Positions 4,885-26,314 of a stretch of DNA of 32,246 bases are shown one piece after another; the first letter of the stretch is position 1; every line of letters starts with the position of its first letter. The translations under genes and the position numbers were made by a program. The stretch covers positions 1 through 32,246 of the forward strand of contig SKXL01000093.1 in the NCBI GenBank assembly GCA_007128425.1. The letters are read 5' to 3'. The notes beneath the pieces were generated by a model that saw only the letters and a program-made list of their open reading frames with translations, made no database searches and was not told the DNA's origin. Origin of the DNA: Balneolales bacterium. GTDB lineage: Bacteria; Bacteroidota; Rhodothermia; Balneolales; Natronogracilivirgulaceae.

Positions 4885-5361
4885 ATGATAATCAGCATGA
4901 TCGCGGCACATGACCCTGATCTGGTCATTGGAATAGAAGGAAAACTCCCCTGGCATATCCCGGAAGACCTTGCGCATTTCAAGAGCAGAACTGAAAATTA
5001 TCCCGTTGTCATGGGACGGGGTGTTTTTGAGGAGTTGGGTGAAAAACCGCTGCCTGACAGACGCAATGTTGTACTTTCAAGAAGCAAAACATACGAGCAT
5101 GTTGAGATCTGCCGAAGTAAGGAGGAGGTACTGAGGCTCCTTGACGATGAAAAAAAAATCTATATCATCGGTGGAGAACAGATATACAGAATATTTTACC
5201 CGATCTGCACACGACTGGAGTTGACGGTCATTTATGAGCGTTATAGCGGTGACACTTTTTTCCCGGAATATCGAAATGACATCGGAAAGCTTTGGAAAGA
5301 GGTTTTCAGAAAGGATGCAGACGGGCTTTCATTCGTTGATTACGAACGAATTCGCTCTTAA
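4885..5361 (+). CDS. folA: dihydrofolate reductase
   Basis: NADPH-dependent reduction of dihydrofolate to tetrahydrofolate, completing the thymidylate cycle with the upstream thyA. The product is 158 residues, close to the usual 159. The start ISMIAAHDPDLVIG, the substrate site LPWHIPEDLAHFK (21-33, with Asp28 in the catalytic acid position and Trp23), the Arg in PLPDRRN, the IIGGEQIY motif and GDTFFPEY are all present. One deviation is visible: the cofactor-contacting MGRxTxE motif reads MGRGVFEELG (43-52), with Val in place of the common Thr. The stop TAA shares its last base with the ATG of the next gene. Confidence 0.95.
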   Translation: MIISMIAAHDPDLVIGIEGKLPWHIPEDLAHFKSRTENYPVVMGRGVFEELGEKPLPDRRNVVLSRSKTYEHVEICRSKEEVLRLLDDEKKIYIIGGEQIYRIFYPICTRLELTVIYERYSGDTFFPEYRNDIGKLWKEVFRKDADGLSFVDYERIRS

Positions 5362-7067
5362 TGATAATGTATTTACTAATTGCTGTCATTGCTGTAATTC
5401 AACTTTTGGGTGGTGGATCTCAAACAGATGTGTTTCCAGTGGTGCCTTTGAATGAATACGAAAACAATATTCTTGACTCAGGTGGCGATCTGCTGAAAGA
5501 ACAGGCGGCCCTGGACATACATTTTTACGAGCTGGATTTAACCATAAATCCCTTTGATAGCACGATCGCCGGAAGCGTGCGGATGCATTCTCGCGTACTT
5601 TATGAAACGGAGACGTATGTAGCGCATCTTGACACTCTGTTTGATGTACATCACGTCCACTATCAGTCAGATGATACATCGGTCGTTTTTCCACTTGCTT
5701 TCACACATAGTGACGGCCTTGTAATTGCACAGCTTCCGGAAGTGTCTGCGCCCGGCAGTACTCTTACGATTACTGTTACGTATACCGGAAAACCGAGAAT
5801 GGCGCCCAATCCACCATGGGAAGGCGGGTTTACCTGGGCATGGACTGATGACGGCAAACCCTGGATTGGCGTCTCCTGTCAGGTAAACGGCGCGGATATC
5901 TGGTGGCCGGTGAAAGACCATCCCTCTGACCGGCCCGATTCGGTATCCCTGAAATTCACCGTACCGGATTCCGTAACAGCCGTATCCAACGGTCTGCTCA
6001 GATCGGTGGAACAGAGAAGTCAGGGAACGAAAACGTACCATTGGGTGACCAATTATCCGATAAGCAATTATGCGGTCACCGTGAATGTTGGTCCCTATAT
6101 AGAGCTTGAACGGACATACAAAAGCATAACCGGCGAAACTTTTCCCGTCTACTTCTGGGCGTTGCCGCAACATAAAGTCAAGGCAGAACAACTATTGGAT
6201 CAAATTGATCACCAGATGCGGTTCCTGGAGGATCTTTTGGGACCATACCCCTACCGAAATGAAAAATACGGTGTGGTTGAAGCACCTTTTTTCGGTATGG
6301 AACATCAGACCATCATTGCCTATGGCGCCGGCTACAAAAACGACACCGTTTTTGATACAGATTCGGGTTTCGATGATTTGCACCATCATGAACTTTCCCA
6401 TGAATGGTGGGGCAATTACGTAACGGCTTATGATTGGAAGGATTTCTGGATACATGAGGGGTTCGGCACGTATATGCAACCATTGTACGCCGAGCATTTG
6501 CACGGCAAAGAACATTACCGCTACTTTATGAAGCGCCTTTATCAAAGAATTTTAAATAACATCCCAGTCGCACCGTCTGAAAGCCGCACCACCCGGGAAA
6601 TGTTTGAAGGCAGAGATATTTACATGAAGGGTGCCTGGGTTCTGCATACGTTGCGAAAAATGATAGGTGATGAGTCCTTTTTTGCAGCATTGAGAGAGAT
6701 GGTATACCCACGAACAACGGAACGGCAGAACTATGCCATGGTTTCGGCGCGATTTACTGATACGCAGGATTTTATTCGTATCGTTGAAAAAATATCAGAT
6801 CGAAAACTGGATTGGTTTTTCACTACTTATCTGAGATACAGTGACTTGCCAATCCTTGAAAAAAGATGGGTCAATAATTCACTGATTTTGTCTTGGTCCA
6901 CACCGTCTAACCAGGAATTTCCCATGCCGGTAGAGGTTTGTGATGGAACGCACTGCACAACGGTTATACCCGATGGGAAAACACCGCTCACCATACAATA
7001 CCCCGACAGACTGGTGATTGATCCCTACAACAGGATTCTGCGCTCTGGATTGTACCACCAGCCTTGA
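5361..7067 (+). CDS. M1 family zinc metallopeptidase (secreted or membrane-anchored)
   Basis: Probable exported aminopeptidase of the M1 (gluzincin) family, 568 residues. Residues 3-20 form a hydrophobic signal segment. An N-terminal beta domain (about 45-245) precedes the catalytic domain. The zinc site is complete: HELSH at 343-347 (two His plus catalytic Glu344) and Glu366 at the expected spacing in WIHEGFGTY. Tyr421 in GRDIYMKGAWVLHTLR is the usual transition-state Tyr. The GxMEN exopeptidase motif is modified to GMEHQ (312-316), which may change N-terminus recognition. The first base overlaps the folA stop, so it appears to be the last gene of the ilvE-thyA-folA run. No rho-independent terminator is visible after it. 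Confidence 0.9.
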   Translation: MIMYLLIAVIAVIQLLGGGSQTDVFPVVPLNEYENNILDSGGDLLKEQAALDIHFYELDLTINPFDSTIAGSVRMHSRVLYETETYVAHLDTLFDVHHVHYQSDDTSVVFPLAFTHSDGLVIAQLPEVSAPGSTLTITVTYTGKPRMAPNPPWEGGFTWAWTDDGKPWIGVSCQVNGADIWWPVKDHPSDRPDSVSLKFTVPDSVTAVSNGLLRSVEQRSQGTKTYHWVTNYPISNYAVTVNVGPYIELERTYKSITGETFPVYFWALPQHKVKAEQLLDQIDHQMRFLEDLLGPYPYRNEKYGVVEAPFFGMEHQTIIAYGAGYKNDTVFDTDSGFDDLHHHELSHEWWGNYVTAYDWKDFWIHEGFGTYMQPLYAEHLHGKEHYRYFMKRLYQRILNNIPVAPSESRTTREMFEGRDIYMKGAWVLHTLRKMIGDESFFAALREMVYPRTTERQNYAMVSARFTDTQDFIRIVEKISDRKLDWFFTTYLRYSDLPILEKRWVNNSLILSWSTPSNQEFPMPVEVCDGTHCTTVIPDGKTPLTIQYPDRLVIDPYNRILRSGLYHQP

Positions 7068-23009: not shown

Positions 23010-23158
23010 TTTTACTATTTTAGAATTTCTAAGTCAAAAGACGTTTCTTACTGAACCAACAAACCAAACCGGTTTCGCCGGCGTTACTGAAACAAACCTG
23101 TGATCGGCCACATGCCGTTTGGATGTGCCAAATATATCAGCCCGAAAATCTATTTACA

Positions 23159-23938
23159 ATGGATATAAACAGAAAAGAAGAACTACTGCAATTTGCCATC
23201 TATCTTGCCAGAACGGCTGGGAAAAAAACCCTCGAACATTTCGGTAAAAAGATTGATGTTGATCGGAAAGGGGATGATTCGCCGGTGACCGTTGCCGATC
23301 GTGAAGCCGAAAAGTGGATGAGAGCCCGCATACAGGAGAAGTATCCGGATCACGGGATTGTGGGTGAGGAGTACGGTATCGAAGGCACACAGAAATCTAT
23401 TAAATGGATACTGGATCCGGTGGATGGGACACTTTCATTTATACATGGCATTCCGCTTTATACGACACTGGTCGGTGTCACCATTGATGACGAACCGGAA
23501 TTAGGGGTGATCTATGCGCCGGCGACCGACGAGCTGTGTGAGGCCGGAACGGGTCTTGGTGCACGTTACAACGGGCAGGACTGTCGCGTCTCGAATACCT
23601 CTGTGATCAGAAAGGCAACACTCCTGAGCACGGATATGACTACAATTATCAGTGAAGGGCTGGAAAATCCATTTCGTATTCTTCTTCAGGAATGCAGATT
23701 GCATCGAACCTGGGGTGATGCGTATGGCCACATGATGGTCGCAACCGGCCGAGCCGACATTATGTTTGATCCATTGCTTAATCTCTGGGATGCCGCACCG
23801 TTGCTTCCTATTATGCAGGAAGCCGGAGGAGTGTTCCTGGACTTTTCCGGACGTGCCGTCATTAGCAGCGGTCACGGCTTCTCATCCAACGAGAAGCTTG
23901 CAAGCATTGTATTATCCGCCATTGAGAAGGAGAACTGA
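23159..23938 (+). CDS. hisN: inositol monophosphatase family protein, probable histidinol-phosphatase
   Basis: Metal-dependent phosphatase of the IMPase superfamily, 259 residues from ATG 23159 (an upstream ATG at 23123 adds 12 residues of no family likeness). Metal ligands are Glu70 in GEEYG, Asp86 and Asp89 in LDPVDGT, and Asp211 in LWDAAPLLPIM. The DPVDGTLSFIHGIPLYTT and TWGDAYGHMMVATGRADIMFDP stretches match the HisN branch that hydrolyses histidinol phosphate, rather than SuhB, which usually has DGTxNF. Histidine biosynthesis is therefore the likely role, but no his genes are nearby. It is divergent from tex across 149 bases, which contain a bulged CACAT/ATGTG hairpin (23106-23129). Confidence 0.8.
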   Translation: MDINRKEELLQFAIYLARTAGKKTLEHFGKKIDVDRKGDDSPVTVADREAEKWMRARIQEKYPDHGIVGEEYGIEGTQKSIKWILDPVDGTLSFIHGIPLYTTLVGVTIDDEPELGVIYAPATDELCEAGTGLGARYNGQDCRVSNTSVIRKATLLSTDMTTIISEGLENPFRILLQECRLHRTWGDAYGHMMVATGRADIMFDPLLNLWDAAPLLPIMQEAGGVFLDFSGRAVISSGHGFSSNEKLASIVLSAIEKEN

Positions 23939-23965: not shown

Positions 23966-26314
23966 ATGACAACTTATCATATGACATTGACAAACAAAGC
24001 GATAGCCGCTTGCATATCAATAATTAGTTTAGCATCAATTCTCACGTTCATACCATTGAAGGTTTTTTCTCAACAGGGGGGTGATTACGTGATCAGACCT
24101 GTTTCAGAGATCCAGTATACTAGCCTGGAACTTCACCTGGAGGCCGGATTTGAAGAAAAAACCATACGCGGCTCTGCCAGATACCATTTCCGGCCCAAGC
24201 ATGCATATGTTGACAGCATTTCCTGGATGGTACCCGGCATGGACATTCTAAAACTTGAACTGGATGGCCAGAAAATACCATACAGCAGAAATGGTGATTC
24301 ACTTGTAATTTCTTTTGATGATCATCCTGATCCGGCACAGCAATATACGATTGCAGTCTCTTATGAATCGAAACCCGCTTTTGGTGTTCATTTCAAACAC
24401 AATGGAACCATCTTTTCATCAACCCTTCCGGGCAGTGTTGCTCACTGGCTGCCCGGACCGATTCACCCGCGTGTCTCAATGCCTGTAACCATTACACTGG
24501 AAGCCCCAGGAAATTATAATGCCGTTGCTACTGGTTCACCGTCGGATGAGCAAGCTACGGAAAAGGGTAGAAAATTTGTGTTCTCATCGGATAACGAAAC
24601 ACCTGTTTCTGAATTATTTTTCGCTGTTGGTGATTTCGCCATGGAGGAATCATTTTCGGGTACAAAGAATATCAGGGTTTACCACGAACATGGAGTAGTT
24701 GAAGACGGGCGCTCGAGAGAGATACTCTCCTACATGATACAACGCATACGCGAACATGAGCGTTATTTTCGCAGTGAGCTGCCTGTTTCTGCGTTCCATA
24801 CTCTGATACTTTCAGATGATAAATGGGAAACCCGTCCCTATGCAGCAGGGATTGCAGTATTTTCCAGCCCACAGGGGCAAATTGAGACACTGATCTCTCG
24901 TGCAATCGCATCACAATGGATCGGCATTTCCTCGCGGGCAGAACAGTGGGCGGATTCTCGTTTTATTGTGCTGCTCCAGGCTTTGGTAGCAGAAGAATTG
25001 GATGATCCTGAATGGCAGTCGGTAGCAGATCCACTTGAACAGGCTTTCAGAGTGCCCCGGACACTGTATTCCGAGCAAACGATGGAAAGGTGGCAGTGGG
25101 CACGTCGTTATTTGCGAGATCAAGCTCCGCCGCTTCTATCGGATGTACTGCCATACCTTGTCAGAGATTTTTCAGGTAATTCCGGAGTTTACGAAGCGGA
25201 TGATTTTTCCCGCATGGCATATCAAAAGACCGGAAGGTGGATTTCCTATCCTGTAATCAATGAACCTGTACCGGAATCAAAACCAGTGTATCGTGTTCTG
25301 ATATCAGAGACAAGAGACTCAGAACGGCTTGCACTGGCTTTGGTGCCCACCGGTGATTACAGGGAACGCGTTAATACAGCAACCATTAACTGGACTCATA
25401 ACGGTGAATTTTTCGATAGGCAAGTGGAGTTTCGCGGAACAGGAGATACACTAAATATTCCGATAAATGGCCGCGTCAGTAATGTATGGATTAGTGCTGG
25501 TGATGATTCGGACGTAAACTTCGAAATCGATAAGCCCTTTTCGTTCTGGCTCTACCAGCTGCGTCGAGACGACCGCCCTGAAAAGAGACGAGAAGCCGCC
25601 CTGGCGCTGAAGGACCATGACTCGGATCCTGATCTGCAATTGGCGGTGCAGGATATAATGAACCGCGAAGAAAATACCGAAGTGCTGGCAGCGCTTTATC
25701 GTCTCATGGCAAAACTGACATCAGGAGCCAGCGGTACAGAAAGGCGCTTTCTGGAAGGAGTCACCTCTCCTGATGCAGAGATCCGTATGGTCTCCATGCA
25801 ATCCCTTAAGGCATACCCCGGTAATTCGCAAGTCCAAAACAGGGTTTTGGAGATCATACAAACGTCTGATGACATTCCACTTGTCAACCAGGCTGTACGT
25901 ACCTACAGAAATCTGATTGATGAGGATGAGTTTCGTGATTTCGCCATCAGGTTTTTAAGAGAAGACCGTCAGGAACTGCTTTTCACCAAAACATTGCTGG
26001 AGGAGCTTTTTGAAGTACCGGTGGATGATACCTCTTTTGAAGCAGCTGTCGAATACCTCAATCCGGGCTACGCTTTCAAAATCCGGTGGCTGGCCTATAT
26101 TCAGTTGAGCAGATTTGCAGCTGATCGCGAATGGCAGGCCGATTTTGCCAGGAACAATTCGGATGATCCGGATCCCAGAATACGGTTTGCGGCGATTTTT
26201 TCTGTGCCACAGATAGATTTGCAGGATCAGGTACCTTTTTTGCAGTCACATATGTTGCTTGAATATGATATTCGTATATTAAAGCAGGCAAGTGAACTCG
26301 CCAATGCCGAATAG
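23966..26314 (+). CDS. M1-fold protein without zinc-binding residues, with helical-repeat tail
   Basis: 782 residues, probably exported (signal segment about 10-35 ending near FSQQ). An M1-like N-terminal beta domain (45-235) leads into a helical domain. At the zinc site the line reads ISRAIASQWIG (310-320), where active members have the HExxHxWxG pattern. The two His and the catalytic Glu are Arg312, Ser316 and Ala313. The third ligand, 19 residues after the second His, is Val335 (in WADSRFIVLLQAL), not Glu. The exopeptidase motif region reads PYAAGIAVFSS, with no GxMEN. The C-terminal part (about 545-780) is helix pairs like HEAT repeats (FLEGVTSPDAEIRMVSMQSL). A binding role is likely, comparable to TAF2, but the function is not known. 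The active M1 at 5361-7067 is a distant paralog. Confidence 0.75.
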   Translation: MTTYHMTLTNKAIAACISIISLASILTFIPLKVFSQQGGDYVIRPVSEIQYTSLELHLEAGFEEKTIRGSARYHFRPKHAYVDSISWMVPGMDILKLELDGQKIPYSRNGDSLVISFDDHPDPAQQYTIAVSYESKPAFGVHFKHNGTIFSSTLPGSVAHWLPGPIHPRVSMPVTITLEAPGNYNAVATGSPSDEQATEKGRKFVFSSDNETPVSELFFAVGDFAMEESFSGTKNIRVYHEHGVVEDGRSREILSYMIQRIREHERYFRSELPVSAFHTLILSDDKWETRPYAAGIAVFSSPQGQIETLISRAIASQWIGISSRAEQWADSRFIVLLQALVAEELDDPEWQSVADPLEQAFRVPRTLYSEQTMERWQWARRYLRDQAPPLLSDVLPYLVRDFSGNSGVYEADDFSRMAYQKTGRWISYPVINEPVPESKPVYRVLISETRDSERLALALVPTGDYRERVNTATINWTHNGEFFDRQVEFRGTGDTLNIPINGRVSNVWISAGDDSDVNFEIDKPFSFWLYQLRRDDRPEKRREAALALKDHDSDPDLQLAVQDIMNREENTEVLAALYRLMAKLTSGASGTERRFLEGVTSPDAEIRMVSMQSLKAYPGNSQVQNRVLEIIQTSDDIPLVNQAVRTYRNLIDEDEFRDFAIRFLREDRQELLFTKTLLEELFEVPVDDTSFEAAVEYLNPGYAFKIRWLAYIQLSRFAADREWQADFARNNSDDPDPRIRFAAIFSVPQIDLQDQVPFLQSHMLLEYDIRILKQASELANAE

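Follow-up and report, generated by a model that had tools for sequence, protein, structure and literature searches.

Nearly all bacteria of the order Balneolales carry an exported protein that we read, with a probability of roughly 0.7, as a former M1-HEAT aminopeptidase that has no catalysis left and that selection maintains for binding or scaffolding. Dead relatives of the M1 peptidases are known mainly from eukaryotes. Pseudo-M1 proteins as such have been described, with TAF2 as one case and Tma108 as a partly intact one; the case described here is an exported bacterial family that extends across an order. Searches of the available literature found no report of this family. The protein analyzed here is encoded on a stretch of 32,246 nucleotides from a Balneolales bacterium (the window), and its features are collected in Table 1.

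Available annotation models recover only parts of this protein. Its sole Pfam name comes from a HEAT match (PF13646, E 2.4e-8), and the Peptidase_M1 model (PF01433) gives no match to it at E<=1 and none to ten relatives at E<=0.01. The LTA4H model of NCBIfam (TIGR02411) matches weakly (E 8e-5) over residues 48-247 in the N-terminal domain, and six relatives pass the Pfam cut-off for M1_N (PF17900). The profile of 69 relatives with 21-83% identity to the window protein (alignment A1) was compared by hhalign with one of nine zinc-bearing M1-HEAT aminopeptidases from the same class and phylum (A3). The two align over 732 columns (probability 100, E 1.1e-58), a span that takes in the saddle, the thermolysin-like domain, the beta-sandwich and the HEAT array; against M1-HEAT proteins of this class that lack the zinc site the same profile aligns at full length with E 4e-61. 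Among PDB structures it finds TAF2, LTA4H and IRAP at E 1e-18 to 7e-21, as well as Tricorn F3 and other M1 structures, with an overall range of E 7e-21 to 4e-14. Judged by these alignments, the window protein is a member of the M1 family over its full length and in all four domains. The M1 architecture that the preliminary description had recognized is thus borne out by the domain models, the PDB matches and the 732 aligned columns. The C-terminal helical repeats, which it had called an addition, are indeed present as a HEAT array, but the zinc-bearing Bacteroidota M1-HEAT aminopeptidases have a collinear array and align through it, so that the array belongs to the inherited plan. AlphaFold models built from two and three sequences were poor (pLDDT 36-40). 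Foldseek searches with both models returned TFIID/TAF2 and M1 peptidases, and a TFIID chain, most likely TAF2, ranked first each time; the ranking is weak support because of the low pLDDT of the models. The mean entropy per domain is lowest in the HEAT array (2.25 bits), followed by the saddle (2.38), the thermolysin-like domain (2.64) and the beta-sandwich (2.84). The HEAT domain contains the blocks QLR...NPDLQLAL.D...GASGTE and DPRIR...EYD.R, and D556, L559, D563, G590 and R740 are invariant in the 69-sequence alignment.

Table 1. Features of the window, with nucleotide positions counted from its first letter
Feature	Position	Strand	Basis
Complete ORF (782 aa, ATG start) of the exported M1-HEAT protein without zinc site	23966..26314	+	ORF and homologues
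Probable Sec signal peptide, ~aa 1-36, cleavage near FSQ-Q	23966..24073	+	hydrophobic N-termini of relatives; site by eye
M1 N-terminal beta-saddle domain, ~aa 43-245, limits approximate	24092..24700	+	TIGR02411 48-247; PF17900 in relatives
Thermolysin-like domain without catalytic residues, ~aa 246-430	24701..25255	+	hhalign to catalytic M1-HEAT; purifying selection
Conserved D284-x-x-W287-E288, in the stretch replacing GxMEN	24815..24829	+	column counts, 69 relatives
RAIASQWIG, aa 312-320, opposite HExxHQWFG	24899..24925	+	MAFFT and hhalign; column counts
Val335, possible third-ligand position; variable column, unsure register	24968..24970	+	MAFFT vs hhalign
Trp376, opposite the catalytic Tyr of YxKG	25091..25093	+	alignment; W in 45/69
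Beta-sandwich domain, ~aa 431-522, least conserved folded domain	25256..25531	+	entropies; hhalign
C-terminal HEAT-repeat domain, aa 523-782, most conserved domain	25532..26311	+	PF13646; entropy
Inositol monophosphatase-family gene (HisN-like), directly upstream; probably same operon	23123..23938	+	PF00459 E 1.8e-52
Second M1 protein, 568 aa, intact HELSH...HEGFGTY site, directly after dihydrofolate reductase gene	5361-7067	+	
Penicillin amidase-family protein, 801 aa	12598-15003	-	

From the alignments it is near certain that the whole Balneolales family has lost the M1 zinc site. MAFFT and hhalign agree in placing the HExxHQWFG motif on RAIASQWIG, and no HExxH occurs in any of the 70 aligned sequences, down to about 21% identity. 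The column of the first His, R312 in the window protein, holds Arg in 54 of the 69 relatives; the Glu column (position 313) holds Gly, Ala or Ser in 57 and the second His column (position 316) Ala, Gly or Ser in 61. The same register continues into a nearly invariant QW.G (Q317 in 67/69, W318 in 66/69, G320 in 69/69). GxMEN is likewise gone and is replaced by D..WE....AG, with D284 kept in 66, W287 in 64 and E288 in 61 of the 69 relatives. At the column of the catalytic Tyr (YxKG) the window protein and 45 of the 69 relatives have Trp. The loss is coordinated, with Arg in place of His, small residues in place of the Glu and the second His, and mostly Trp in place of the Tyr. Y419 was considered as a surviving catalytic Tyr and rejected, since YxKG of the active M1-HEAT enzymes aligns near residue 376, whereas Y419 belongs to a helix further on. 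These data agree with the preliminary description in its reading of RAIAS at the HExxH position, in the disappearance of GxMEN and in its view that the whole zinc site has been replaced. Its argument from Val335, whose 19-residue spacing was thought to strengthen the alignment, adds little. Val335 stands opposite the third-ligand Glu in MAFFT, whereas hhalign opens a 4-column gap there, and the column is variable among the 69 relatives (T 15, E 15, L 9, V 7); the Glu of those 15 never occurs together with both His ligands. Val335 therefore carries no weight. Of the positions to be checked in homologs for conservation as non-ligands, those of RAIAS are so conserved, as R312 illustrates, and that of Val335 is not.

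The gene is found in 114 of 129 Balneolales genomes, in 80 of the 84 that are well assembled and in all ten genomes of the source genus, essentially as a single copy. Two genera (g28 and g29) account for 11 of the 15 genomes that lack it. A plasmid search gave no match to the M1-like protein. A peptide-pattern search of genome contigs yielded a single close relative. This protein, from a Balneolales bacterium MAG, has 83% identity over the whole protein, and comparison of the two genes gives a dN/dS of 0.21 overall and of 0.14-0.28 by domain, with the thermolysin-like domain at 0.14 (dN 0.072, dS 0.507). An N-terminal hydrophobic segment is present in 67 of the 69 relatives and a later membrane segment in none, which supports the export proposed earlier. 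At the level of sequence, the protein occurs across the order, carries an export signal and is under purifying selection.

Directly upstream on the same strand lies an inositol-monophosphatase gene in 60 of 68 loci. The commonest spacing is a 4-nt overlap, and the two genes mostly overlap or lie within a few tens of bases; an ABC transporter, glgA and glgC are often kept in place beyond it. In loci of the genus g11 (L036, L039, L043 and others) the gene is not immediately upstream, and in L145 the distance between it and the M1-like gene is about 1.3 kb. Across the order the inositol-monophosphatase gene (HisN-like, just below the NCBIfam cut-off) is coupled to the M1-like gene, even though a cytosolic product is expected of the former and an exported one of the latter. 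Ordinary M1 genes coexist with the family, as judged from PF01433 matches (1-8 per genome) in 126 of 127 Balneolales genomes; the source genome has three, one of them within the window.

Since the protein retains the M1 build without any catalytic residue and is still under selection, its most likely function is to bind or organise other proteins in a binding or scaffold role, comparable to that of TAF2 with its M1 build. In this scheme it is an M1-HEAT aminopeptidase in which the zinc site, the GxMEN strand and the catalytic Tyr have all been replaced. The HEAT arm, as the most conserved domain, would dock a putative partner protein, comparable to domain D4 of TAF2, for which the published domain layout and contacts include a crosslink to a Taf8 helix (PMC6220335). 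The old substrate cleft, now with W287/E288, R312 and W318, may be closed by an Arg-Glu pair, or may alternatively still hold a peptide without cutting it. We count against a binding or scaffold role that the operon neighbour is an enzyme of the cytosolic type. A narrower form of the same reading is that the protein acts as a regulator, which would pair with the active M1 aminopeptidases of the same genomes or compete for their substrates. The coexisting M1 genes speak for it, including the intact one at 5361-7067, but the conserved neighbour is the inositol monophosphatase, and the active M1 genes show no conserved linkage to the family; we regard a regulator as decidedly unlikely.

It is also conceivable that the N-terminal segment is retained as an anchor, so that the body of the protein would work on the outer side of the inner membrane. 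The single long hydrophobic segment would fit such a tether. However, in many relatives it ends with AQ, SQ or AxA-like sites, which are typical of cleaved signal peptides, and we hold tethering to be doubtful. Far less probable is another catalytic or metal site, in which H160 and H167 of the HWLP..DHP loop would bind a metal together with D284 and E288 and serve a different hydrolase activity. These residues are well conserved (80%, 86%, 96% and 88%, respectively), but in the alignments they fall opposite ordinary stretches of M1 proteins that hold no ligand, no HxH, Cys cluster or new motif was found, and no confident model brings them together. The loss of every catalytic residue might finally be taken to indicate a decaying aminopeptidase that has no function. 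This is refuted by full-length open reading frames across the order, the low dN/dS in each domain, the single copy and the conserved gene order, and its probability is negligible.

Profile searches of the class and the phylum sorted the relatives into three sets, namely zinc-bearing M1-HEAT proteins from many families, zinc-less proteins in other families of the class, and the Balneolales family. The zinc-bearing Bacteroidota proteins (for example L124-L128, about 810-830 aa) have the same four domains in the same order and a HEAT array with the QLR motif. In contrast to the Balneolales family, they keep HExxH, the third Glu and a Tyr of the YxKG type, and most of them keep GGMEN. The other zinc-less proteins of the class (L104-L110, L166 and relatives) have lost the zinc site, GxMEN and the Tyr as well and have kept the HEAT array. 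They differ in having replacements of their own, such as RLLAR and TNLAK, in partly keeping the WL.(D/E) helix and the KG of YxKG, and in the absence of the inositol-monophosphatase neighbour from the three loci examined. Zinc-less M1-HEAT proteins that have lost QWFG too were seen in family f19 of the class (L166, L167, L178-L181, L184-L186). In a tree built with the zinc-site columns removed, the Balneolales proteins form one group (support 100), and all zinc-less proteins lie together with L113 on one side of a branch of modest support (79). L113 (G151:C155) is a partial M1-HEAT protein that keeps WLNEGFATYL with the third-ligand Glu and YRKG with the catalytic Tyr; its HExxH region falls beyond the end of the contig. 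Possibly L113 is a member with an intact zinc site that falls within the group without one, and either the zinc site was lost repeatedly or L113 is misplaced in the tree. The same genome contains a different, HExxH-bearing M1 fragment (L155, G151:C73).

Human TAF2 is the top PDB match of the Balneolales profile and likewise of the profile of the other zinc-less proteins. The matches are collinear in the M1 core, the beta-sandwich and the HEAT array, with the QLR segment at residues 647-689 of human TAF2. With the zinc-bearing profile TAF2 comes 15th, below PSA, IRAP and others, a rank that is expected if the lost site simply costs score there. Profiles restricted to the HEAT array find TAF2 at E 1.3e-4 and 7e-9; many unrelated HEAT proteins match too, and M1 proteins other than TAF2 are unmatched among the matches listed. 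Both proteins combine an M1 fold without the zinc site with a HEAT-like fourth domain, which for the Balneolales protein is judged by sequence profile. In contrast to the exported bacterial protein, TAF2 is a nuclear, eukaryotic protein of about 1200 aa that binds promoter DNA and other TAFs. Bacteria are not known to have TFIID. TAF2 acts in the nucleus and on promoter DNA, a role that an exported protein cannot share. The earlier choice of TAF2 as dead M1 counterpart stands, given that it is the best profile match of known structure and alike in architecture. The profile data speak for a like architecture and a like loss in the two proteins and do not show a special kinship beyond the M1-HEAT plan. 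That TAF2 descends from a bacterial M1-HEAT stock, with bacterial zinc-less members among its nearest living relatives, seems to us very improbable. The yeast M1 relative Tma108 resembles the Balneolales protein in its proposed non-enzymatic role, the binding of nascent chains (PMC11266112), and differs in having an active site that is almost complete and in acting at the ribosome.

The analysis would correct the annotation of a protein that Pfam calls a HEAT-repeat protein only. The Balneolales family offers a small bacterial comparison for TAF2, and if TAF2 did come from such a stock, the bacterial zinc-less members would exhibit, in a protein that is exported, the pseudopeptidase state or the stage immediately preceding it. 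Together with relatives in the same phylum that bear zinc or are partly degraded, the family makes up a natural series for studying the passage from an aminopeptidase to what is probably a binding protein.
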